Of a stretch of 38,422 bases of DNA, positions 6,551 through 16,772 are shown piece after piece (the first letter of the stretch is position 1; each line of letters begins with the position of its first letter). The notes under the pieces were generated by a model, which saw only the letters and a list, made by a program, of their open reading frames with translations, did not search any database and was not told the DNA's origin. Made by a program: the position numbers and the translations under genes. This DNA is from a virus. The stretch is taken from positions 1 to 38,422 of the IMG/VR virus record IMGVR_UViG_3300031673_000208. One strand, 5' to 3'.

Positions 6551-6741
6551 CGGCACCGGAGAAGCCAGGTTTGAAACATACGGGGCGCACGATGTTGTAC
6601 AGTAAGTATGCGGTTTGCGAGAGGTTCGGGATGACGCCGAGCGAGTTCAACCAGTTAGGCCGAGTCGAGCAGGTGAGGCTATTAGCGTATGAGGGGCTAC
6701 GTCGCGATGAGGCGTGGGCCGCCTTCCATAAGGAATCCTGA
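6547..6741 (+). CDS. Tail chaperone extension ORF (gpT-like)
   Basis: 64 residues if started at the ATG of the ATGA overlap, or the C-terminal part of a 242-residue fusion if reached by the -1 frameshift at 6529-6535. The sequence RTMLYSKYAVCERFGMTPSEFNQLGRVEQVRLLAYEGLRRDEAW contains the short helical pattern common in T-domain ORFs and in the second tail chaperone ORF of many siphoviruses. The stop overlaps the tape measure ATG by one base (TGATG). Direct start and frameshift are not exclusive, but the position strongly favours a G/GT arrangement. Confidence 0.6.
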   Translation: MTAPEKPGLKHTGRTMLYSKYAVCERFGMTPSEFNQLGRVEQVRLLAYEGLRRDEAWAAFHKES

Positions 6742-9068
6742 TGTTACTTGAGCGGCTAGTGGCTAGAATCGAGGGCGTGGACACCAAGTTCCAGCGCGCG
6801 ATGCGCGGGGTGGAGACGGGGACCGCGCGCTCGGCGTCCAGGGTTAAGCGTCTGTGGCTAGGAGTAGGTCTAGCCATCGGCTTGGCGGTTGCCGCTGTCG
6901 TTATTTCCATAACCAGCATGGCCGCCCAGTATGAATACGAGATGCGGCAAGTCTGGACGTTGACGGATCAGACGGCGGAGGAGTTCGAGGGTTTGTCCGC
7001 CAGCGTCCTTGCAGCCGGGGCCGCAATGGGGCAGGCCGCTAACACGATGGCCAAGGCTACTTACCAAGCCGTATCCGGTAGCATCGAGTGGGAGCGGGCT
7101 ACCAATTTCGTGACCTTGTCGGCTCAAGTGGCGCTGGCAGGCGCGACCGACGCCTTTACCGCCACTAACCTGCTCGTGCAGATCACGAATGCGTACAAGG
7201 AATCGTCCCTAGACGCCCACGAAGCCGCGCAAATTCTGTTCACGACGGTGAAGTACGGCGTAACCACCATTGAGCAACTGGCTCCTACCTTGGGCCGCGT
7301 GGCATCCATGGCGGCCACCGCATCGATAGATTTCAGGGACCTAGGCGCGTGGATTGCGGCCACAACCTCCGTCATCGGCGAGACCGGAATAGCCATCACG
7401 GGTACGCGCGCCATGATTGCTGGAATGATCGACCCCACGAAAGAACAGGCCGAAGCCGCGCACGCGCTTGGTATCGATTTCGGGCTGGCTGCGTTAGAGG
7501 CGCGCGGCCTATACGGCGTCATGAGGGACGTGCGCGAAGCTACATTCGGGAACGTTGAATCCCTCGTGAAATTGTTCCCGCAAATCCGCGCCCTGACGGC
7601 TGCCGCTGCGGGTTTACGGGGCGGATGGTTCCGATACCTTGAGACGTTGGAAGCCATGACCGATGAGACCAACGAGTTCGCAGAAGCCTCCGAGAAGATG
7701 TACGGTTCCACTAAGTTCATATGGAGCCGTATGGGTGCAAACATCAAGGCAGTAGGTATAGCGATTGGAACTTCGGCCAAGGAACTCACTGAGCCGTTCG
7801 CTAATTTAGTCTCGTGGCTGATAGAAACTAGAATTACATCGAGGTATGCCACCGAGGCGATGAGCAAGGCGCGGGAGCAGGTTAAGGAGTTCCGTCTAAC
7901 CGCCGAGGAAACTGAGTATTGGACGGGCCGCCTCTTCGAGGCCGTGTACAAGAAGCCGGAAGCGGCCATGACGTTTCTGGACACGATCATATCGTCTTGG
8001 ATGTCGGGTGCGGAAGCAGCTAGGCTCATGGGTCCGATCCTCGAGGAGATGTACGTCAAGCACCGTGATCTCATGGAGGAAGCGGCGGAGCGCGACATCC
8101 AGCTTACGGATACGGTCGCGGATGCCAAACGGACAGCCGAGAAAGCAGCCGACACCGCGCGACAGGCGGCCTTCGACGAGCACCTTGACTGGCTAGAAGG
8201 CGCTTTCGATCGTGAGACTGGCCTCTTAAACGACGCGCTCAAGGATCGCAAGAAGCTCTACGAACAATACATCGACGAGATACAGAAACTCCATAAGGAA
8301 CAGGCGCTCAGGGCGGAAACGGCGGAGGAGGAGATATTCGGGCTCCGTCTAGCACGCATGGGTGAAGGGGAACAGCTAGGCGCACTCACGACGTTTGCGG
8401 AAGACTTTTTTGCGCGCGCTGAAAAAGCGATGACCGTTGGGAGCTACGAGGAGGCGCGCCGACTCTTCGAGAAAGCTATCGATTATTACACCAGAGCCGC
8501 GCAGGACGCGCCCGACCTCGACTTTGAAGGCATCGTAACCGACATCGAGAACATCCACCAGAGAATTAGTGAGGCTTTCGACTTGCAGGCGGAAGTGGCA
8601 CTTGAATCAGCCAACGAGCAGGTGAATGCGATCGCCAAAATAGAAGCCGAGCTTGATGCGCTATATAAGAGGGCGCGCGAGGGCGCTGATATTATAGTTG
8701 AGGATAAGTGGGCGATGCAGGCCATTCAGGAAGTGCAAGCTGAACTCGCTAAGTTGACGGATAAGCGGATACGGATAACGGTTGAAAGAGTATGGAATCC
8801 CCCGCTTGGTTATGATCCGAGCACGGTTGATCCGGGTTGGGGCGGATTTTACCCAAGTTCGATTCCGAGGGAATCGGAGCCGAGCGGCGTTCAATTGCGA
8901 CCCGCCTTCGAAGATCAGTCGCCGGGCGCGAGTCTTGGCAAGGCCGAGTTTAATATGTACTTCAATGTGCCGGTTACTAGAGAAACGGTCCGCGATGTGG
9001 TTATACCGGAAATGCAAGCGGCGGCGAAGCGCGGGCTGCTCACGCCGACGTTGGGGGGGCGGGGATGA
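6741..9068 (+). CDS. Tail tape measure protein
   Basis: 775 residues. After a short N-terminal region a hydrophobic segment (GVGLAIGLAVAAVVISITSMA, residues about 36-56) leads into the conserved tape measure core of the TP901 type: YEYEMRQVWTLTDQTAEEFEGL, then ATYQAVSG, ITNAYKESS, then TTSVIGETG.AITGTRAMI. The rest is long helical coiled coil (about 370-660, many Glu/Lys/Ala) ending in a Pro-rich tail. The family fixes tail length at roughly 0.15 nm per residue, so a tail near 115 nm is inferred. The gene follows the chaperone ORFs and overlaps the next gene by ATGA. Confidence 0.85.
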   Translation: MLLERLVARIEGVDTKFQRAMRGVETGTARSASRVKRLWLGVGLAIGLAVAAVVISITSMAAQYEYEMRQVWTLTDQTAEEFEGLSASVLAAGAAMGQAANTMAKATYQAVSGSIEWERATNFVTLSAQVALAGATDAFTATNLLVQITNAYKESSLDAHEAAQILFTTVKYGVTTIEQLAPTLGRVASMAATASIDFRDLGAWIAATTSVIGETGIAITGTRAMIAGMIDPTKEQAEAAHALGIDFGLAALEARGLYGVMRDVREATFGNVESLVKLFPQIRALTAAAAGLRGGWFRYLETLEAMTDETNEFAEASEKMYGSTKFIWSRMGANIKAVGIAIGTSAKELTEPFANLVSWLIETRITSRYATEAMSKAREQVKEFRLTAEETEYWTGRLFEAVYKKPEAAMTFLDTIISSWMSGAEAARLMGPILEEMYVKHRDLMEEAAERDIQLTDTVADAKRTAEKAADTARQAAFDEHLDWLEGAFDRETGLLNDALKDRKKLYEQYIDEIQKLHKEQALRAETAEEEIFGLRLARMGEGEQLGALTTFAEDFFARAEKAMTVGSYEEARRLFEKAIDYYTRAAQDAPDLDFEGIVTDIENIHQRISEAFDLQAEVALESANEQVNAIAKIEAELDALYKRAREGADIIVEDKWAMQAIQEVQAELAKLTDKRIRITVERVWNPPLGYDPSTVDPGWGGFYPSSIPRESEPSGVQLRPAFEDQSPGASLGKAEFNMYFNVPVTRETVRDVVIPEMQAAAKRGLLTPTLGGRG

Positions 9069-9493
9069 GCGTAAAATTTCAGTTGGGCGGCACGGTCTTC
9101 TACCTTCAAAACCCGGACCTCGCTAACGCCCCTGAGAGAAGACGTATGCAGGTTATCCGCCAGGGGGCCAGCGGCTGGTACTTCGTATACGATAAGGGCC
9201 ATAACACCGTGATTTGGACGCTTCGATGGAGCAACTTGCGCGAGAGTGAAAAAGTTGCTTTGGATGATTTCTTTCTGAGCACGGTGCAGGGCGCTCTTAA
9301 CATCTTTTCTTTCACCGACTGGAGGGGGAATCTTAAACAGGTCCAGTTCCTGCAGTCATCCATCGAGTTTACCGAGGTGGCCGATGCGCGTGTGGGGGCC
9401 GCAACAACTTTCTCTAGCGGCGGCGTGGATTACCCCACTACGACCAGGGAAAAGGGCGTGTGGGCGACGGAGATCAAACTGCGGATAATTTAG
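9065..9493 (+). CDS. Probable distal tail protein
   Basis: 142 residues, beta-rich. It begins MSVKFQLGGTVFYLQNPDLANAP and contains WYFVYDKGHNTVIWTLRWSNL, a helix SEKVALDDFF, then NIFSFTDWRGNLKQVQFLQSSIEFTEV. This W-T-L-RW...L...E...L.DFF pattern followed by F.F.DW.G resembles small distal-tail or tail-tip proteins encoded directly after the tape measure, which ring the end of the tail tube. It overlaps the tape measure gene by four bases. A close functional match cannot be proven from sequence alone. Confidence 0.6.
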   Translation: MSVKFQLGGTVFYLQNPDLANAPERRRMQVIRQGASGWYFVYDKGHNTVIWTLRWSNLRESEKVALDDFFLSTVQGALNIFSFTDWRGNLKQVQFLQSSIEFTEVADARVGAATTFSSGGVDYPTTTREKGVWATEIKLRII

Positions 9494-9508: not shown

Positions 9509-12500
9509 ATGAAGACGTTATCAGCCGCAATGAAATTAGCGCGGGCTCGCCTGGGCACGTACCCGTGGAACGTCGTGCGATTTGATTGGGGCGGGGCCAT
9601 TGGCAACAAGTGGTACAGCGATATACCTAGCGGGGACGCCAGCGGCAGTTCGGCGACGAACCTTGCCGTGCGGGTTGTGGATTGGGGGGCGTATACTCTG
9701 CCGCAGGCCGAGGGCCGTACGGCGGCAGCCGTCGCAGATATTACAATCACTTTGGACGACCGTGACGGCGTGATTCGTGGTTATATGCGGTCAGTCGGTC
9801 ATACTCGAATCCCGGCTACGGTCTATCAGGTATTCTCACCTGCTGGCGCTGCGGACATGATCATTCTCTTGAAGGGCGTATCCGTTGCCCCATTTCACTG
9901 GCGCGAGATGGACGGCACTATCGCCATTGACATCACGGAGCGTGCGGGCCAATTCAATCAAGTGGTCGGCACCGTGGTCACCAGCGAAGATTGGCCTTAT
10001 TTAGGCGCTGACCAATCCGCGATGTTGCCTATAGTCTTCGGGCGTGTTGATCGGCGCAAAGCCTTCTTGCTTGAGGGGACCGTAGAGACCTCTCTCTCTG
10101 CACCCCTTCAACAGGATGGTTGGGACCTTTATGTGAATGACAGTGAGGACTTCCCGCAAAACACCACCATTAAGTTATGGCTTGACGGTGAAGTTATCCG
10201 GGGCCGTTTTAAAGATGGGAACAAATTCTGGACAGAATATCGTGGCGACAATTCGTATCAGGGCTTCGCCACCAGCACCGCACAGCACCTACTTGAGGTG
10301 CGCTGCACGAATCTCCCGCCACCAATAAGTCAGTATATAGGTTTGCCGATCAGCATCCAGCGGGGCTTTGGGGCCTTTGCCGAAATTTACGAGCGGCAGA
10401 TTGTGGGGGTCGATGCGAGTATCTCGGCGCTTTACTTCGATAGGGTCTGCTCTTATTATGATCCAACGGGGCGGATTGTTGATTGGTACGTGGTGGGCGG
10501 CGCGCCTATCCACATTGACGGCGAAGTACGCGAGCACCAGAAAGGCACGCGCGTCATACTAAAGCGTGACGCATATACTTGGGTTGTAAACGACCAGCCA
10601 AGCAAAAGCGTGGTCGCCGTCGAGGCCTCGATTACGAACATAGCGAGGCGTAATTACTGGGGGCCGGACGACTTATTGGTTAGCGCGGCCCCTACTTCTG
10701 GTTATGCGGCAATTCCGCCGACCATGCGGACTATAAATTTATCCAATGGCGGCCTTATTGCGGGCAGGAATCTCACCACCATTACGATGACGGTATTGCC
10801 CACGATGGTCGGGCCAGAGTTCGAGTTTACCGGCGACGACCTGTACGTTACGCTAAACGGCTGCTATGACGCAGGCGGCGCTACCGTTAAAAGTCCCCCC
10901 GATGTCATCCGCGAATTAGGGTATAGATACTTGGGCATGGAGGTTGGCGATTTTGACCAAGCGAGCTTTGAGGACGTAAAGGATCAGCTTACGTGGTGCC
11001 ACTTCGGCTTCATGCTGCAGGATCAATATCAGGGCCTTGACCTGTTCGCCGATCTGGCCATGCAGGCAAGGTGCATGGTCACGTGGGAGGAGGGGAAAGC
11101 AAGGCTCCGTTATTTACGGGAAGGCCCTTACGGGGTGTGTGCAGCAACTGGCGGTGAGCAGCGCGAAGCTTGGAGCTTAGAAATACACCACGAGAGTCCG
11201 GAGGATGTCATCACCGAGATCGTCGCTAAATTTACGCGCAAGGCGAATAAGAGCGCCCACCACGTAGTACGGAGTGTGGGCGCAATGGCCATCTATGGTC
11301 GTAGGGTATTAAACTTGGATTTGTGGGCGCATAACCAAATTCAGACAGTTAGACCCGTAGCCGATTTCTGGTTGGAGCGCCTATCTCATGCCCATGAAAG
11401 AGGGCGCGCTAAGACCTTTCTTCGGCTGCTTGAAGTCGAAAGAGGCGACGTTCTGGAGGTTCGGTGGACGCCTGATTTCGTGACTCTTCACGGCGAGGTT
11501 ATGAGTGTGCATCATCAGTTGGGGAATGCACCTGAGGATCGCATGGACAACGTAACGCTCGAATTCCGGCTGCCGCGTTGGGGCGGCTGCGAGAGCGGAT
11601 GCGAAATGCCGTGCGAAGTGGGTACTGAGATGATGTATGATAAAGCTCTGGCTGGGTGCGAATTGGCTTGTACTTACCATTGCCAGTCAACGTGCGAGGA
11701 AGCCTGTGAGATCACGTGCGTATCGGGCTACGAATTATCGATGGTCAGGAATAAGGAAGACTGGTTGGAGGGGTGCGCCTCCGCGTGCCAAGCCAACTGC
11801 ACGACCACGTGTGTTGCGACTTGTCAAGTCGCCTGTGAAACCGCCTGTGCTTCGGGTTGTGAGGTCTATTGCGAAACTACTTGCGAGTCGCATTGTGAAG
11901 TTTATTGCGAGACTGGCTGCGAAACGGAGTGTGAGTCGAGTTGTGAGACGGCGTGTCAGGCGGCTTGCCAAAGCGAGTGCGAGTCGGGCTGCGAACTTGG
12001 TTGCGAGACTGGCTGCGAAACAGACTGCGAATCGGGCTGTGAAACGGAATGCGAATTGGGCTGCGAAGTCTACTGTCAGACGGGCTGCGAATCAAGTTGC
12101 GAAGCTGGCTGCGAGACTGGCTGCGAATCAGGATGCGAGATAACGTGCCAGACCACTTGCGAGGCCGGATGTGAGACCAGTTGTGAAACGGGGTGTGAGG
12201 TCACGTGCGAGACGGGATGTGAGGTTAGTTGCGAAACCGGATGTGAGGCCGCGTGCGAGAGCGGGTGCGAGGTAAGTTGCGAAGTCTCTTGTACGGCGGG
12301 CGGTTCCGAATGCTGCTACCTGCCGTGTTTCTGCTGGCACGACGATCTCGGCGATCCGTACCTTGAGGCTTGCACATATAATCCGCTCTGCGCGCCTTGG
12401 ACGACGGGGAATTGCACCTATTCTCAGTACGGAGGCTGCGAGCCCGGATGCATCGACTACAATGATCTATTACCTTGGTCGTACTGGTACGAATCGAACA

Positions 12501-12514
12501 ATTGCGCCGTATAA
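9509..12514 (+). CDS. Tail-tip protein with C-terminal CXXX repeat domain
   Basis: 1001 residues. Residues 1-690 are a beta-rich tail hub or tip region (for example FDWGGAIGNKWYSDIP, ITITLDDRDGVIRGYM, VTWEEGKARLRYL), consistent with the slot after the distal tail gene. From residue 694 the sequence becomes Cys-rich: three CXXX tetrads at 694-705, six from 717, then 43 consecutive tetrads from 756 ending with Cys 928. Most tetrads read Cys-Glu-X-X (CETG, CESG, CEVS). A further ten Cys follow, among them ECC, PCFC and GGCEPGC, with aromatic residues at the end (WSYWYES). The linker between the two blocks contains MVRNKEDWLEG. Even i,i+4 spacing over 172 residues suggests a regular fibre. The downstream radical SAM/SPASM enzyme is the likely modifier; disulfide or metal binding are alternatives. 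Confidence 0.75.
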   Translation: MKTLSAAMKLARARLGTYPWNVVRFDWGGAIGNKWYSDIPSGDASGSSATNLAVRVVDWGAYTLPQAEGRTAAAVADITITLDDRDGVIRGYMRSVGHTRIPATVYQVFSPAGAADMIILLKGVSVAPFHWREMDGTIAIDITERAGQFNQVVGTVVTSEDWPYLGADQSAMLPIVFGRVDRRKAFLLEGTVETSLSAPLQQDGWDLYVNDSEDFPQNTTIKLWLDGEVIRGRFKDGNKFWTEYRGDNSYQGFATSTAQHLLEVRCTNLPPPISQYIGLPISIQRGFGAFAEIYERQIVGVDASISALYFDRVCSYYDPTGRIVDWYVVGGAPIHIDGEVREHQKGTRVILKRDAYTWVVNDQPSKSVVAVEASITNIARRNYWGPDDLLVSAAPTSGYAAIPPTMRTINLSNGGLIAGRNLTTITMTVLPTMVGPEFEFTGDDLYVTLNGCYDAGGATVKSPPDVIRELGYRYLGMEVGDFDQASFEDVKDQLTWCHFGFMLQDQYQGLDLFADLAMQARCMVTWEEGKARLRYLREGPYGVCAATGGEQREAWSLEIHHESPEDVITEIVAKFTRKANKSAHHVVRSVGAMAIYGRRVLNLDLWAHNQIQTVRPVADFWLERLSHAHERGRAKTFLRLLEVERGDVLEVRWTPDFVTLHGEVMSVHHQLGNAPEDRMDNVTLEFRLPRWGGCESGCEMPCEVGTEMMYDKALAGCELACTYHCQSTCEEACEITCVSGYELSMVRNKEDWLEGCASACQANCTTTCVATCQVACETACASGCEVYCETTCESHCEVYCETGCETECESSCETACQAACQSECESGCELGCETGCETDCESGCETECELGCEVYCQTGCESSCEAGCETGCESGCEITCQTTCEAGCETSCETGCEVTCETGCEVSCETGCEAACESGCEVSCEVSCTAGGSECCYLPCFCWHDDLGDPYLEACTYNPLCAPWTTGNCTYSQYGGCEPGCIDYNDLLPWSYWYESNNCAV
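11774..12292 (+). repeat. 12-bp coding repeat array (CXXX tetrads)
   Basis: Forty-three uninterrupted 12-base units, each coding a Cys-X-X-X tetrad, plus a terminal Cys codon. The consensus is TGY GAR NNN NNN. Units are degenerate at third positions (TGC and TGT, GAG and GAA alternate), so the amino acid pattern is kept while DNA identity drifts, which argues for selection on the protein. Shorter related blocks occur at 11588-11623 (3 tetrads) and 11657-11728 (6 tetrads). Confidence 0.9.
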
Positions 12515-12523
12515 AGGAGCATG

Positions 12524-13021
12524 ATGGTGGCTGTGAAGATTCCAGCGGACGTGCGAGAGCTTTTCAGGCAGTGCCCGTTCCGCGAAGTCCGGGCAGTGAT
12601 CCCGGAGGGCACTGCCATCTTGAGGTCAGGCGAAGTTTCTAAGTGCTTTGCCATCGACAAGGAACTCGGATTTCCTGCCGGGTCCGTTGGCGTCCACGAA
12701 AGCACGTGCGCGGCCTGCGTTTTATCCGGGGAGCCAGGATCGCTGGAGAATGAGGCGTTCAAGGTGGATATAAGCAGCGCCGCCATCGGGCGGATCGGTT
12801 CCGGTACGTGCCCCACAGGAACGAGCCGGGATGTGATTATAAGCAAGGCTCTCGCAGTGGGCGCGGGCAAGGAGCGCCTGCGGCTTGCACTTATCCGTGG
12901 AGTCAGCACGGTCGAAAGACTAAAGGCCGAAGGCAGAATCGATCCGGTGAATCCATTGACGGAAGAGGAGGCCATGCGCTTGGCCACAGAGTATGATCTA
13001 CTGGAAGAGGTTGCGCCATGA
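12524..13021 (+). CDS. Unknown protein between CXXX tail protein and radical SAM enzyme
   Basis: About 165 residues. AAAGGAG at 12513-12519 makes ATG 12524 (or GTG 12527) better spaced than the ATG at 12521. No family recognised. Visible features are an N-terminal IPADVRELFRQCPFREVRAVIPEGTAIL, single Cys residues at about 18 and 42, a CAAC motif near residue 65 (STCAACVLSG), a further Cys in GSGTCPTGTSRD, and a helical C-terminal half (KERLRLALIRGVSTVERLKAEGRI) ending in an acidic helix. It sits between the CXXX-repeat tail gene and the maturase and overlaps the next gene by ATGA, so it may be an accessory or recognition factor for the modification. That role is inference from context only. 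Confidence 0.65.
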   Translation: MVAVKIPADVRELFRQCPFREVRAVIPEGTAILRSGEVSKCFAIDKELGFPAGSVGVHESTCAACVLSGEPGSLENEAFKVDISSAAIGRIGSGTCPTGTSRDVIISKALAVGAGKERLRLALIRGVSTVERLKAEGRIDPVNPLTEEEAMRLATEYDLLEEVAP

Positions 13022-13287
13022 GCGTCAAGGAGGATTTCGCAAAGCAGTTGCGATTAGCGGCGAAGATAGGCCGGGCATCGGGCAATCTGTCCGCAGTGCC
13101 GGAGGAAGTACGGAAGCAGCGCGAGGAAGCCTGCCGCGAGTGCTCCGCAAACGAAGTAGTGGATGGACGACCGCGCTGCTCCTATTGCGGCTGCGACGTG
13201 GAAGCACGACTGTCAAAGGCCGATGCCCTTTGCGCGAAGAATCTATGGCCCGCACTGACTGAGGAAATGTTAGGATTGCAGGATTAG
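13018..13287 (+). CDS. Small zinc-ribbon-like protein
   Basis: 89 residues. A helical start (MSVKEDFAKQLRLAAKIGRA) is followed by REEACRECSANEVVDGRPRCSYCGCDVEARLSKADALCAKNLWPAL. The spacing CxxC...CxxCGC...K...CxxxxW matches a common small phage zinc-binding protein that often lies next to tail or fibre genes. The ATGA overlap with the preceding gene indicates coupled translation. It may simply be a structural zinc knuckle protein; a role in handling the Cys-rich tail domain is possible from its position but unproven. Confidence 0.65.
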   Translation: MSVKEDFAKQLRLAAKIGRASGNLSAVPEEVRKQREEACRECSANEVVDGRPRCSYCGCDVEARLSKADALCAKNLWPALTEEMLGLQD

Positions 13288-13297
13288 GGGGGATAGG

Positions 13298-14827
13298 ATG
13301 CTTAGAATACTGAACGCGGGCGCGGCACCTACAACCGGGACACTGCCGGGCGCAGCCGAGCCTCAAGTAACTTTCTTTGCCGTGCTTGGGGATCACTTCA
13401 TATACGACGCTAATAGTATGGCCCTGGCGCATGTGGAGCCGGGGTTGTGGCGGACGTTGCGCGATAACGCGAGCGCGGGCGAGGAGTTCGGCGGTATATT
13501 CTGGAGCCGTAACAAGCCGCAATTTCATTCATACCCCCCAAGAACCCAAGCCCTCGTACTGAATGTGACCCATAACTGTAATCTCGCGTGCCGGTACTGC
13601 TTCGTCCGTAATATAGACGATTACCGGCGTGCGCGATTGCCTGAGATGACGTACGAGACTGCCATTGAAAGCATTCAGCATTTTTTCCCGCGCGGTAATA
13701 AGGTCCGTATTGATGTGGGGTTTTTTGGCGGGGAGCCCTTTTTACGGTGGAACCTCATGAAGCGCGTGGTCGAATGGGTCGAGAACGAGGCGAAGCAGCG
13801 CGGCGTCGAAAGGAAATTTTACGTAACCACCAATGCTACGCTCGTCGATGAAGAGAGGGCTAAATGGTTAGCGCTGCATGAATTCAGTCCAACAGTTAGC
13901 CTGGACGGCAACGAGGTCACGCACAACGCCATGCGGCCTAGCCGAAACCCCAAACAAAATAGCTGGCTGATGACGATGAAGGGGCTGGAACAGTTGGCGG
14001 CTGTCGGTCTCGGATTACGGGTAACGCTGCGTAGCACCTTTACAGGTGAGGGCGTCGATCTGACTGAGCGGTTGCGCGATTTGAACACGCTCGTCTGGCG
14101 GGGTATGGGCGGCGCTGTAGCCGTCGAGCCCTCTTCCCTCTCCGAAGCTAGCTGCATTGACGCTAGCGCCACCAAAGGACTCGTTTTCGATCCTAATAAT
14201 ATCCGAGCGCAACTTGGGTTCCAATACGAGCACGCGGCGGAGTGGTACATCGAGCAAATCAACGACGGTCGTAGGCCGCACTTCCATCACTTCGACATCT
14301 TTATCCGCCGACTCCTATGGTGCGAGCGCAATCCTTCGGAATGCGGGGCCGGTAAAGGGTATATATGTATAAATCCGGAAGGCCACGTCCACGCTTGCCA
14401 CCGAGAAACGCGATCCCGGATAGGTGCATTACCTTATGGGATTGATGAGGAATTGCGGACGCCGTGGCTGGACAACCGGCTGTACGCGCGTACCGGGTGT
14501 ATGGCGTGCGACCTGCGCTACCTGTGCGGCGGCGGTTGCCGCCTGAATAGTCTGGCTTTCGGCCTACCTATATCTCAGCCCGTACCCGATGACTGCATTT
14601 TCAAGCGACTCTGGTTCGAAAGCGCCGCACACATCATGGCGCACATAGACTCCACAAAACTCCAACAGTTATACCCACCCAAGAGAGGGAGGAAAATCAA
14701 TGTTCCCGCCCGACGACCGGAGCATCAACGGACAACTAGGCGAGATAGCGGGGTCCCTGACGGGGATCAACACCACGATGGGGGACGTGAAGGACAACAT
14801 CGGCAAGTTGTTCGACAAGGCGGATGA
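13298..14827 (+). CDS. Radical SAM/SPASM peptide maturase-like enzyme
   Basis: 509 residues as an open frame; the recognisable enzyme ends near residue 465. The radical SAM motif is CNLACRYCF (Cys 94, 98, 101), binding the 4Fe-4S cluster that cleaves S-adenosylmethionine, followed by GGEP at 144-147. The C-terminal SPASM-type region has Cys 349 (ECGAGKGYIC), 357, 367 (HACHRE), then 401, 404, 410 and 414 (GCMACDLRYLCGGGC) and 433, giving auxiliary cluster ligands. CGAG followed by PEGHVHACH resembles maturases that form Cys-derived thioether bonds (SCIFF/ranthipeptide and QhpD type). An upstream N-terminal stretch could be a peptide-binding domain. A GGGGGGATAGG site precedes the ATG. The 128-base overlap with the next gene is odd: the last 40 residues look like out-of-frame coding. 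Confidence 0.8.
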   Translation: MLRILNAGAAPTTGTLPGAAEPQVTFFAVLGDHFIYDANSMALAHVEPGLWRTLRDNASAGEEFGGIFWSRNKPQFHSYPPRTQALVLNVTHNCNLACRYCFVRNIDDYRRARLPEMTYETAIESIQHFFPRGNKVRIDVGFFGGEPFLRWNLMKRVVEWVENEAKQRGVERKFYVTTNATLVDEERAKWLALHEFSPTVSLDGNEVTHNAMRPSRNPKQNSWLMTMKGLEQLAAVGLGLRVTLRSTFTGEGVDLTERLRDLNTLVWRGMGGAVAVEPSSLSEASCIDASATKGLVFDPNNIRAQLGFQYEHAAEWYIEQINDGRRPHFHHFDIFIRRLLWCERNPSECGAGKGYICINPEGHVHACHRETRSRIGALPYGIDEELRTPWLDNRLYARTGCMACDLRYLCGGGCRLNSLAFGLPISQPVPDDCIFKRLWFESAAHIMAHIDSTKLQQLYPPKRGRKINVPARRPEHQRTTRRDSGVPDGDQHHDGGREGQHRQVVRQGG

Positions 14828-15029
14828 ACACACGCGGCAGCTTGCCGGTATGGGGGCTACGGTAGAGGCTATGGTGAACACGTGCGTGGGGCAACGTAAG
14901 GGGATGTGCGATCGAATGGGCGTCATCGAGGAGAAACAGGATCGTGGTACTAAGAGATTCATAGGTCTGTTGATTGGGATGGTCTTAACCCTTACCGGCC
15001 TTGTAGTCAGCCTTTTAAGGGGGAAATGA
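14700..15029 (+). CDS. Coiled-coil membrane protein, XhlA/holin-associated-like
   Basis: 109 residues with GGGAGGAAAATCA before the ATG. Residues about 5-80 are helical with heptad-like spacing (INGQLGEIAGSLTGINTTMGDVKDNIGKLF), containing two Cys (NTCVGQRKGMC). One C-terminal membrane segment (FIGLLIGMVLTLTGLVVSLL) ends with the basic tail RGK. This design, N-terminal cytoplasmic coil and C-terminal anchor, matches XhlA-type haemolysin/holin accessory proteins. The gene begins inside the 3' end of the radical SAM frame and overlaps the glycosyltransferase by ATGA. Confidence 0.6.
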   Translation: MFPPDDRSINGQLGEIAGSLTGINTTMGDVKDNIGKLFDKADEHTRQLAGMGATVEAMVNTCVGQRKGMCDRMGVIEEKQDRGTKRFIGLLIGMVLTLTGLVVSLLRGK

Positions 15030-16057
15030 AAGTGTTAATACGGGTACTGCGCGAGGCGGGCGGATTGGGCGACTTGATACGCATATTCGCTGTACTGCAG
15101 GCGTTGAAGGACAAGTACCCCGGCAGCAAGACTCACTTTTTCTGCCTGTCCCACTACCAGGAACTCGTGATGAATGGACACTGCGGCGCAGTGGATGTGT
15201 TCGTTTCTATACCTCACGATCTACGGCGCGACCGGATGTCGCCGATAGACGAGGCCGAGCACCGATACCTCCGGACCGGCTGCACGTACGATATGGACGT
15301 CGATCTTTATTGTCCGGCGTGGGTACACGAACGAGAGACCCATGGGGCCGTGACGCGAGAGCGCACGGAGTTGTGGGCAACGTCGGCGGGGGTTCCCACA
15401 CGGCGACCCGTCATGCATCTTTCGAGTGAAGAACGCGCGTGGGCGCGCTCGTGGTTCGAAGCCATCATGTTCCCTGCGTGGGATAGATGCGGCGACTCTA
15501 AGAAGCTCATTGTAATACAACCTCGGTCTACCGCTTCAATTCGTAATTGGATGGAGGAGCACTGGTGCGAGCTTATACTTAAGTTCACGCAGGAAGGCCA
15601 TGCCGTCGTACTACTCGATAACTGCACCGGCCCGTCCCACGGATGGCCGTCCACGCTCAGGGAGATTAATCGACCCTTCGGCCAGCTCGCTTGTATCGTG
15701 TCCATGGCCGACCTCGTTGTCTCACCGGATTCGGGCGTCTATCATTTGGCCGGGGCGCTCAAAGTGCCCGCTCTTGGCATCTTTCACTCGACGAACGGCG
15801 CGATTATATCTAGTATATGGAAGGGGACCGGCTACGCCGTTACACCTAACGGCAAGAGTACCAGGCACGATGGCTGCTTGGACCCCTGTTATGGCTTCCC
15901 TCAGCGGGGCCGGACCCGCAAGTGCAACTCAGACGGCTGCGTACTCGCTCACCAGATTATACCGGATGACGTGTTCCGCAGAGGAATGGAGATTTTAGAT
16001 GAACATAGCGGAATTGATGGGGGATATCAGCGACTGCCCGCCGAAGCCGTCCGTTGA
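15026..16057 (+). CDS. Glycosyltransferase family 9 (heptosyltransferase-like)
   Basis: 343 residues. GGLGDLIRIFAVLQALKDKYPGSKTHFFC is the N-terminal Rossmann motif of GT9 enzymes (GD...T.P....L), and the C-terminal donor-binding half has LIVIQPRSTASIRNWMEEHW, then LVVSPDSGVYHLAGALKVPALGIFHST, the DSG..H.A.A...P....F motif typical of ADP-heptose:LPS heptosyltransferases. These enzymes transfer sugars from nucleotide donors. In a late phage operon the target may be a tail protein or host surface sugar. A C-terminal CLDPCYGFPQ...CNSDGC segment is Cys-rich, as in several phage and bacterial GT9 relatives. Its gene overlaps the next by 59 bases. Confidence 0.75.
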   Translation: MKVLIRVLREAGGLGDLIRIFAVLQALKDKYPGSKTHFFCLSHYQELVMNGHCGAVDVFVSIPHDLRRDRMSPIDEAEHRYLRTGCTYDMDVDLYCPAWVHERETHGAVTRERTELWATSAGVPTRRPVMHLSSEERAWARSWFEAIMFPAWDRCGDSKKLIVIQPRSTASIRNWMEEHWCELILKFTQEGHAVVLLDNCTGPSHGWPSTLREINRPFGQLACIVSMADLVVSPDSGVYHLAGALKVPALGIFHSTNGAIISSIWKGTGYAVTPNGKSTRHDGCLDPCYGFPQRGRTRKCNSDGCVLAHQIIPDDVFRRGMEILDEHSGIDGGYQRLPAEAVR

Positions 16058-16772
16058 CTACTTCGATAAGGCATACTGGAAGGACGCCAGCAAGTCCGGT
16101 TATCGGGGGTACGGACCGGGCTGGCATATCCATTGGGAGATAGGCCAGATGCTGGCCATCGGGCTCGCACCATGGCTAGAAAGCCCACGTCCGCCCGTTA
16201 ACGACGACGACGCGCGTGTACTCGATCTCACACGTGTACTCGATGTCGGCGGCGCATTTGGTTATCATATGAAGTGGCTCCAAGAGTTCGCCCCCTGTAT
16301 CGGTCACGTCGTAGACGCCTCCGCGTACGCGATCCTCAACCTCGACAGGGCTCTCGACGGTAGAGGTTGGCACCTCGATGCGGGCGTTGACAAGCTTCCG
16401 TTCCCGGATAATTATTTCCATCGGGTCGTAGCGATCGAGTCACTGGAGCACATCTACATCAAGGAAGTGCCGTTCGCAATCCGCGAGATCGCTCGCGTGT
16501 TGGATGTCGGCGGAATCCTGTATAGTTCGATCGCTATGGGCGAACGCTACGATCCGGACTTTATTGATATCACACACCAAACCATGCGCCCGGAGGTATG
16601 GTGGGTTCGGATGCTTGAGCGCGCCGGTTTGGAGAGGCGACCGGACATCGAGGATCAGATGAAGGCCGCCGTCGTCCCGCGACTACACGGCAAGACACCA
16701 ACGGCCCCTGATGGGTTATTGGCCTTGAAGATGAGATGGAATGTTGTATGCTGTTCGAAAGGAGGTGAATGA
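15999..16772 (+). CDS. Class I SAM-dependent methyltransferase
   Basis: 257 residues. Motif I is VLDVGGAFGYHMKWL (about residues 80-94), followed by the acidic VVDAS strand end, and a post-core region VDKLPFPDNYFHRVVAIESLEHI with the usual methyltransferase-11 layout (D.LPF.D..FD.V....LEH). IREIARVLDVGGILYSS matches the R.LkpGG motif. The N-terminus (YFDKAYWKDASKSGYRGYG) is common in methyltransferases paired with glycosyltransferases. It starts within the end of the glycosyltransferase gene. The substrate, possibly a sugar on a tail protein or cell surface, is unknown. The final residues CCSKGGE are encoded by the ribosome site of the next gene. Confidence 0.75.
   Translation: MNIAELMGDISDCPPKPSVDYFDKAYWKDASKSGYRGYGPGWHIHWEIGQMLAIGLAPWLESPRPPVNDDDARVLDLTRVLDVGGAFGYHMKWLQEFAPCIGHVVDASAYAILNLDRALDGRGWHLDAGVDKLPFPDNYFHRVVAIESLEHIYIKEVPFAIREIARVLDVGGILYSSIAMGERYDPDFIDITHQTMRPEVWWVRMLERAGLERRPDIEDQMKAAVVPRLHGKTPTAPDGLLALKMRWNVVCCSKGGE

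Follow-up and report, generated by a model that had tools for sequence, protein, structure and literature searches.

The virus record IMGVR_UViG_3300031673_000208 of the IMG/VR collection, analysed here at its full length of 38,422 bases (the window), carries tailed-phage head, neck, tail and replication genes. Among them stands a gene for a tail protein packed with cysteine (Cys) repeats, followed by a gene for a radical S-adenosylmethionine (SAM) enzyme of the SPASM type; these two genes and the system that they may form are the subject of this study. Read from the 5′ end, the order is a tape-measure gene, a small gene, the gene of the 1001-residue tail protein, two small open reading frames (ORFs), the radical SAM gene, a further small ORF, a GT9-family glycosyltransferase gene and a methyltransferase gene. 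The features on which the argument turns are the following:

9509-12514, + strand: tail protein of 1001 residues with 69 Cys, made up of a hub- or tip-like N-terminal region and a C-terminal Cys domain
11588-12514, + strand: the Cys domain (residues 694-1001), the predicted substrate, with 63 Cys, 46 of which have Glu or Gln (E/Q) at position +5
11774-12292, + strand: unbroken CXXX array within that domain, 44 Cys in register at four-residue spacing
13298-14827, + strand: radical SAM/SPASM maturase of 509 residues (PF04055, 53 bits against a cut-off of 29.5)
13577-13600, + strand: CxxxCxxC radical SAM cluster motif of the maturase (C94, C98, C101), invariant in 21 of 21 aligned sequences
14342-14596, + strand: SPASM Cys of the maturase (349, 367, 401, 404, 410, 414 and 433), invariant in the same 21 of 21
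15026-16057, + strand: GT9-family glycosyltransferase (PF01075, 62.1 bits against a cut-off of 22)

Loci compared with the window are cited by L number. The N-terminal two thirds of the tail protein have relatives in eight other loci (L243, L242, L162, L248, L288, L255, L164 and L289) and a weak match to PF13550 (Phage-tail_3) that lies below the cut-off (E 0.01; 16.2 bits against 23); a search of 50,697 phage records with this N-terminal region, at an E limit of 0.01, gave no match. In the Cys domain, 37 overlapping matches to a pattern of eight in-register CXXX Cys fall between 11774 and 12292, and 100 shuffles produced none. The in-register score of the domain is 53, compared with a mean of 6.2 and a maximum of 22 in shuffles, which rules out chance or low complexity as the origin of the repeat. 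The maturase gene begins 783 bases after the end of the tail gene. A first-pass annotation, made from the letters of the window, had proposed this arrangement of a Cys-repeat tail gene with a SPASM radical SAM gene downstream, and it is borne out. Its description of Cys as nearly always next to Glu was overstated: Glu is frequent there, at +1 of 40 of the 63 Cys (47 if Gln is included), and CE makes up 33 of the 43 steps of the main array. E/Q is as common at +5 as at +1, and stands at +4 of only one Cys. In the window, CEVGTE and CVSGYE are examples in which the fifth residue is kept without a next Cys. AlphaFold2, run on the bare Cys domain with 3 sequences, gave no confident fold (predicted local distance difference test, pLDDT, 35) and has no bearing either way.

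The enzyme is, to judge from its motifs, a member of the radical SAM superfamily and of the SPASM-domain enzymes, and its seven SPASM Cys are predicted to bind two auxiliary clusters. Its best NCBIfam scores are with SCIFF (TIGR03974, 163.5 bits against a cut-off of 425), PapB (NF047865, 161.3 against 340), QhpD (TIGR03906, 160.4 against 453) and the nif11 maturases (159.5). The anaerobic sulfatase maturase model TIGR03942 gives 79.8 bits (cut-off 349.45) and the CXXX-repeat maturase model TIGR04115 46.6 bits (cut-off 350). Identity as a sulfatase maturase is ruled out by the distance between these scores, and the placement of the enzyme among the thioether-forming families (SCIFF, PapB and QhpD), as first proposed, stands. 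In a profile search with six sequences the best solved structure is CteB (5wgg; E 5.4e-65). The predicted model of the enzyme (pLDDT 86) aligns to CteB with a Z score of 36.2 and a root-mean-square deviation of 2.6 Å over 404 residues. Before its core the model has three strands (24-29, 32-37 and 42-46) and two helices, and the alignment with CteB runs from residue 21 on. In the sequence alignment this N-terminal region is shorter than the corresponding region of CteB, which is a recognition element (RRE) for ribosomally synthesised and post-translationally modified peptides (RiPPs).

The spacing of E/Q relative to Cys was examined in 46 Cys-repeat proteins, reduced to 38 by removal of similar ones, of group A (the window clade) and group B (enzymes with PapB as their best model). 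The source was a hand-made list of 40 loci, 18 of group A and 22 of group B; the six proteins of group C were excluded for having no E/Q preference, the irregular L255 and L256 were added by hand, and the off-frame ORF L254, on the minus strand, was dropped. Several of the listed loci came from a CE-containing pattern, which favours Glu beside interior Cys and not E/Q at +5 of run ends. A Cys with no other Cys in the following seven residues was counted as the last of its run. Run-last Cys have E/Q at +5 in 89 of 146 cases (69 of 117 in group A, 20 of 29 in group B), against 118 of 1391 over the other offsets from +2 to +12 (p 1e-47), where single offsets range from 3 to 16%. By protein, +5 is ahead of all other offsets in 18 of the 38 and tied in 17, many proteins having few run ends. 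Run-first Cys have E/Q at +1 in 33 of 149 cases, compared with 709 of 786 for interior Cys. E/Q thus appears to be needed by the Cys five residues before it, and since this five-residue pairing is set on a four-residue period, the E/Q beside the next Cys is a by-product. The pairing of Cys with the adjacent Glu, as first envisaged, is ruled out by the same test. In a second set, E/Q stands at +5 of 29 of 31 run-last Cys, at +1 of 4 of 33 run-first Cys and at +1 of 227 of 243 interior Cys. In this set L400, L381 and L382 are new relative to the first, L185 has no usable run end, and independence is only partial because L237 lies in the same virus record as L258, part of which the first set already contained.

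The E/Q at +5 might be a mere remnant of decayed CE repeats in which the Cys was lost and the Glu stayed, with no pairing at all. Arrays do gain and lose units, as a comparison of L243 with the window shows. Decay would nevertheless keep E/Q at +1 of run-first Cys at the interior level of 90%, and 22% is observed; at −3 of run-first Cys, E/Q reaches 24% in group A and 13% in group B, against 58% and 67% at +5 of run-last Cys. The array in the L249 record, which was not used to find the rule, has E/Q at +5 of 11 of its 12 usable run ends. The asymmetry between first and last Cys rules decay out, and we consider it hardly credible as an explanation. The same i to i+5 spacing would suit an acyl partner, and one could imagine spontaneous Cys-Gln thioesters or similar bonds, with the enzyme acting elsewhere. 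Internal Cys-Gln thioesters occur in other surface proteins. In the window clade, however, Glu exceeds Gln (E 0.63 and Q 0.27 at interior +1), and spontaneous thioester formation by Glu is not known to us. The presence of the radical SAM gene would also go unexplained, and we regard this explanation as very improbable.

The association of enzyme and Cys repeat recurs when either is used to find the other. Virus contigs were scanned for Cys periodicity at the DNA level, with the enzyme left out of the search, and the 238 loci among the matches listed are a sample of the collection. Coding Cys-repeat genes were split from the rest by a rule that also made no use of the enzyme (longest ORF over the array of at least 100 residues, neighbouring 12-mers differing by at least 30%), a rule set after the loci and a first listing with enzyme hits had been looked at. 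Among the matches listed, and with near-copies counted, 14 of the 23 coding Cys-repeat genes have a relative of the enzyme in their locus, compared with 0 of the 215 others, which are out-of-frame or simple-repeat loci (Fisher 5.6e-17). Removal of L168 (a copy of the window), L229 (same as L193) and L175 (same ORF as L160, in partial overlap) leaves 12 of 20 with an enzyme; L145 shares 23% of its 31-mers with L208. PF04055 matched in 1 of 40 control records, which were picked by hand from the 215, are mostly larger contigs (31 to 187 kilobases, kb) and include none of the 23.

The reverse search, with a profile of the window enzyme clade (A1), gave 45 virus loci. A same-strand Cys-repeat ORF is present in 33 of them (15 of the 17 closest matches, 18 of the 22 that follow and none of the 6 weakest), and shuffled ORFs passed the Cys-repeat rule in 27 of 11,440 cases. 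Two of the 12 misses do match the repeat pattern elsewhere in the record: for L249 a long array with 47 matches lies approximately 7 kb upstream, and the L279 record contains a single match. The repeat pattern was not found in the records of L247, L265, L269 and L280. The contig of L247 begins 1.2 kb upstream of the enzyme, and L274, which has identical match figures, is positive. In bacterial genomes, 14 of the best 80 of 231 loci were positive for the Cys repeat, including four of the six of lowest E-value (L288, L289, L290 and L293). L293 has the same two Cys genes as L253, and in L354, L358, L361 and L365 the ORFs are of 88-104 residues, closer to RiPP precursors. The ORF of L290 (L290:5737-6018), from a Sedimenticola metagenome-assembled genome, is also peptide-sized: it encodes 93 residues, is Cys-rich with few E/Q at Cys+5, lies directly upstream of the related enzyme and is possibly a cellular RiPP relative of the module. 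The neighbourhood survey with co-occurrence statistics that the first-pass annotation had suggested as a check thus gives a strong link, and with the scores above it leaves the enzyme neither grouped with the sulfatase maturases nor short of Cys-repeat partners.

The Cys domain is portable between proteins. Its carriers include tail-hub-like proteins, baseplate proteins of the P2-gpI type, fn3 proteins (L195 and L281), and Hoc-like and RHS proteins. For the P2-gpI type, PF09684 scores above the cut-off for a single protein in each of L193, L197 and L224. The protein of L144 and the second one of L193 score below the cut-off, and the second protein of L197 has no match. In L270 (7184-8707), a Hoc-like head decoration protein (phrog_10993, 9.5e-85) has a short Cys repeat, with a PapB-like maturase directly upstream; the domain is therefore not confined to tails. 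A clostridial chromosomal RHS-repeat protein of at least 2147 residues (L317:10666-17107, cut by the end of the locus) has a Cys-repeat N-terminal region near a maturase-type gene, and the domain may thus also serve non-phage proteins. Nine loci found by the baseplate-type N-terminal region (close relatives only) all carry the Cys domain, five of them with an enzyme in the locus.

The enzymes fall into at least three groups: the window clade (A), group B and a TIGR04115-like group. In group B, NF047865 is the best model for 11 of the 11 enzymes scanned (L208, L195 and nine more), at 179.5 to 257.2 bits against a cut-off of 340. The TIGR04115 cut-off of 350 bits is reached by L160 (485.8) and L058 (385.6), with L076 just under it at 341.4, and the Cys protein of L160 passes TIGR04114 (22.3 against 20). 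The highest Cys count beside such an enzyme is 131, in one L246 protein. This recurrence, in at least three radical SAM groups and with several unrelated virion proteins, argues against the view that the Cys domain is unmodified and bound by disulfides or metal, with the enzyme acting elsewhere (on host RiPPs by interference, or in DNA or nucleotide metabolism). Cys-dense four-residue repeats would be able to coordinate metal or to pair in disulfides, no modification has so far been observed, and the AlphaFold2 result fits either case. A metal or disulfide site, on the other hand, needs neither E/Q at Cys+5 nor the loss of E/Q at +1 of run-first Cys, and we consider such an unmodified domain improbable.

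Several maturase loci have features of their own. In L197 (3753-6182; the same gene in L253 and L386), the maturase gene has an intein inside the CxxxCxxC motif (Hint 5.7e-6, LAGLIDADG_3 7.4e-7), and in L258 (5992-8532) a different intein occupies approximately residues 379-530 (Intein_splicing 8.2e-26). Two separate inteins in one gene family suggest a well-conserved, important target. In L208 (7090-9244), two tandem radical SAM genes lie behind the Cys-repeat protein; no close family is evident for the product of the first (276 residues), and the jumbo phages described below present the same picture. Cys repeats of two-residue period (CTCTC, CSCACS), with a related radical SAM gene in the locus or record, occur in L276 (3817-4440) and in the L279 record; PapB is the best model for the L276 enzyme, and the shorter period possibly reflects another linkage geometry.

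Among cultured phages, a distant match to the enzyme was found in 79 of the 50,697 INPHARED records, 10 of which were examined. In the jumbo phages SPN3US and phiEaH2, two radical SAM genes are adjacent, and two small Cys-repeat ORFs lie about 1.2 kb upstream of the first. Such pairs of small proteins with a Gly/Ser-rich repeat, of 127-155 residues with 20-21 Cys, are found at L377:5127-5934 (SPN3US), L376:5102-5895 (phiEaH2) and L059:1769-2574; in the record of L059, too, a pair of radical SAM genes stands side by side. The frames of these ORFs in the two jumbo phages differ from those of the annotated genes, which end elsewhere, and the repeats have no E/Q at Cys+5. The best model for the SPASM-type enzyme of SPN3US is TIGR04115 (125.6 bits, below the cut-off of 350). 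The published spectral search on SPN3US virions relied on 273 phage sequences with carbamidomethyl-Cys as a fixed modification (PMC10052503), settings under which cross-linked peptides would be missed. No ORF of seven human-faecal phage records (L368-L374) or of Achromobacter phage 2-1 (L375) passes the Cys-repeat rule, which speaks against a universal link; the enzymes of these eight are remote, at 22.6-26.9% identity, and L374 has a SCIFF-like ORF of 72 residues instead.

The reading that we favour, at a probability of roughly two in three, is a virion-maturation system of the ranthipeptide type, in which overlapping thioethers would join Cys(i) to Glu/Gln(i+5) of the tail domain. The C-terminal array of the tail protein would be a series of overlapping C-x4-[E/Q] units. 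With SAM, the SPASM enzyme would remove a hydrogen atom from the side chain of the acceptor, at a carbon that by analogy would be the Cγ of Glu or Gln next to the carbonyl, and the acceptor carbon would then be joined to the sulfur of the Cys five residues before. If each Cys served as donor and each Glu or Gln as acceptor, a ladder of up to approximately 46 overlapping thioether rings would form in the window protein. The outcome would be a covalently locked rod at the tail tip, which may serve stability or rigidity outside the cell. An acceptor carbon next to a carboxylate or amide fits the known chemistry of PapB, QhpD and NxxcA. PapB joins the Cys sulfur to the Cβ of Asp or the Cγ of Glu and accepts C-Xn-D with n from 0 to 6, in in-line and nested links (PMC9413430). 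QhpD makes Cys-Glu Cγ bonds, NxxcA makes a Cys-Asn bond, and a SCIFF link has been reported between Cys32 and Thr37, five residues apart (PMC8326336).

The enzyme could also modify the Cys domain by another bond, such as alpha-carbon thioethers (sactionines), links to Thr, Ser or Gly at +2 or +3, or epimerisation. Positions +2 and +3 after Cys are indeed rich in T, S, G and A. The wider enzyme group can evidently go with other residues as well, since the TIGR04115-like and jumbo-phage repeats have G/S/T/D/N and no E/Q preference. This is unlikely for the window, however: in both the window clade and the PapB-like group, E/Q at Cys+5 survives the loss of the next Cys, with the other offsets at the low levels given above, and the closest families form Cβ or Cγ thioethers (PMC9413430, PMC8326336).

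What the sequences show directly is the genes and their recurrent association, the family of the enzyme, the dependence of E/Q on a Cys five residues before and the clade-specific GT9 gene; action of the enzyme on the tail domain, the type of bond, a complete ladder, glycosylation and the use to the virion are inferred. Several observations weigh against i to i+5 thioethers on the tail domain. The enzyme is below every curated NCBIfam cut-off among its best 25 models, so its chemistry is a prediction from relatedness, and in the window system no leader peptide was identified and no full-size RRE was shown. Of the 63 window Cys, 17 have no E/Q at +5, and a next Cys at +3 or +5 goes with E/Q shifted to +4 or +6; the rule is accordingly not rigid. 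The six group C proteins break it, as do the Cys repeats of the TIGR04115-like and jumbo-phage loci. For SCIFF itself, another study made the conflicting assignment Cys32-Thr34 (PMC8326336).

The co-occurrence is likewise incomplete. Nine of the 23 coding repeats have no radical SAM gene in the locus. Four of these (L041, L059, L164 and L237) have one above the family cut-off elsewhere in the record, that of L164 belonging to the window clade at 40% identity. The L185 record has only matches below the cut-off, and no radical SAM gene was found in the 17-kb record of L127 (also cited as L242), which stops inside the tail gene; the follow-up covered the records of all but L097, L170 and L175. 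Among the nine baseplate-type relatives, four lack a radical SAM gene at the locus itself. For L381, genes of window-clade enzymes lie elsewhere in the record; none was found in the records of L379, L382 and L383, where the contigs end 2.4, 0.8 and 0.2 kb past the last complete Cys gene.

Known systems share some features with the candidate system and differ from it in others. SCIFF, with CteB as its maturase, is the nearest solved relative, sharing the radical SAM motif, the SPASM Cys set and a reported five-residue distance from Cys to acceptor (PMC8326336). Its substrate, however, is short, with six Cys in forty-five residues, and its acceptor is Thr; the candidate substrate here is a tail protein of 1001 residues, and the predicted acceptors are Glu and Gln. 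The small ORFs of the window do not fit the SCIFF peptide pattern either, having 5 and 6 Cys in 166 and 89 residues. PapB, which makes freyrasin, also joins Cys to acidic residues in repeat arrays, through Cβ (Asp) or Cγ (Glu) thioethers, and tolerates different spacings (PMC9413430). Its native motif is CX3D/E, whereas the units here are overlapping, interlocking C-x4-[E/Q] on a virion protein, and E/Q at +4 is confined to 1 of the 63 window Cys, with the relatives showing the same preference for +5. QhpD is not a RiPP enzyme and cross-links Cys to Asp or Glu in a protein subunit (PMC8326336); that subunit is part of a redox enzyme, whereas the target here would be a long repeat on the virus particle. 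The CXXX-repeat system (TIGR04115 maturase and TIGR04114 repeat protein) has the same four-residue Cys period beside a radical SAM gene, but the window tail protein has no TIGR04114 match up to E 1 and loci of the TIGR04115 type lack the E/Q rule. Among the open-licence papers listed, nothing was found that links phage tail or virion proteins to radical SAM thioether or ranthipeptide maturation. The passages of a pelagimyophage paper that mention radical SAM proteins make no tie to tails (PMC7029224), and a text search in the main text of two SPN3US papers gave no mention of gp163-gp167.

A third component of the module is the GT9-family glycosyltransferase, which is specific to the window clade and which the first-pass annotation had missed as a conserved partner. 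In 12 of the 45 enzyme-picked virus loci its gene follows that of the enzyme at short distance, all of them of the window clade (L250 and L251 are copies of each other, as are L247 and L274), and in the bacterial-genome locus L288. At the level of records, PF01075 is found in 11 of 14 of clade A, in 0 of the 14 covered among the 22 group B loci and in 2 of the 40 controls. The window protein resembles solved structures weakly, the best being lipopolysaccharide heptosyltransferase 1 (E 0.01). A conserved cluster of four Cys close to the C-terminus of the phage GT9 proteins is reminiscent of TibC, a protein-glycosylating heptosyltransferase that acts on autotransporter proteins and has a four-Cys iron finger (PMC4358343). 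The spacing differs, with Cys at 339, 342, 358 and 370 in TibC (PMC4358343) and C-x3-C-x11-C-x4-C in the window protein, for which a protein target is a prediction. In the proposed mechanism the GT9 product would probably add sugar to the surface of the same rod. That it glycosylates the tail is a guess, and modification of host lipopolysaccharide is the ordinary alternative role.

The other genes around the pair are the following:

6741-9068: tape-measure gene (phrog_991, 1.2e-34)
9065-9493: small conserved gene between tape-measure and tail protein genes
12521-13021, + strand: small protein of 166 residues with 5 Cys, given no role by family search
13018-13287, + strand: small protein of 89 residues whose 6 Cys are spaced as CxxC and CxxCxC, resembling a zinc ribbon by eye
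14700-15029: small ORF with a hydrophobic stretch at the C-terminus, sharing 128 bases with the 3′ end of the maturase ORF
15999-16772, + strand: methyltransferase (PF08241, 7.7e-12), overlapping the GT9 gene

The first-pass annotation had counted the two small Cys proteins between tail gene and enzyme as part of the arrangement. Both are present in the window, but they are no constant part of the module: among the loci compared, their relatives are found only in L244, a near-copy of the window, and in L243/L245, the nearest relative. The larger matches no Pfam or NCBIfam family up to E 1, and the smaller has a weak match to phrog_13558, of unknown function (3.8e-6). The ORF at 14700-15029 is holin- or spanin-like by eye, its family matches being weak and at chance level. 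The methyltransferase is common only to the closest relative, L243/L245, among the loci compared.

The chemistry, the enzyme family and the CXXX-repeat radical SAM models are already known, and virion proteins would be a new class of target. To our knowledge, thioether-forming radical SAM enzymes of this type act on small peptides and on one enzyme subunit; here, related enzymes are tied to viral structural proteins, and the residue rule (Cys, with Glu or Gln five residues on) can be tested residue by residue. A wider picture, which we put forward tentatively and rate at somewhat less than even odds, is that RiPP-type radical chemistry serves several phage lineages as a general method of particle construction. 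A transferable C-x4-[E/Q] domain, placed on hubs, baseplate, fn3 and head decoration proteins, would be turned by its maturase into a thioether ladder of tens of interlocked rings, which in one clade would also be glycosylated by a dedicated GT9 enzyme. Such a ladder would be far larger than any ranthipeptide known to us. Annotation can miss the module, as the misannotated small Cys-repeat frames of SPN3US and phiEaH2 illustrate. If the reading is true, a virion appendage would be cross-linked covalently by an enzyme, and enzymatic carbon-sulfur cross-linking would join the known covalent routes by which virions are strengthened. It would also hint at why Cys-packed domains can exist on phage particles, and would provide a source of enzymes that staple long repeat proteins.

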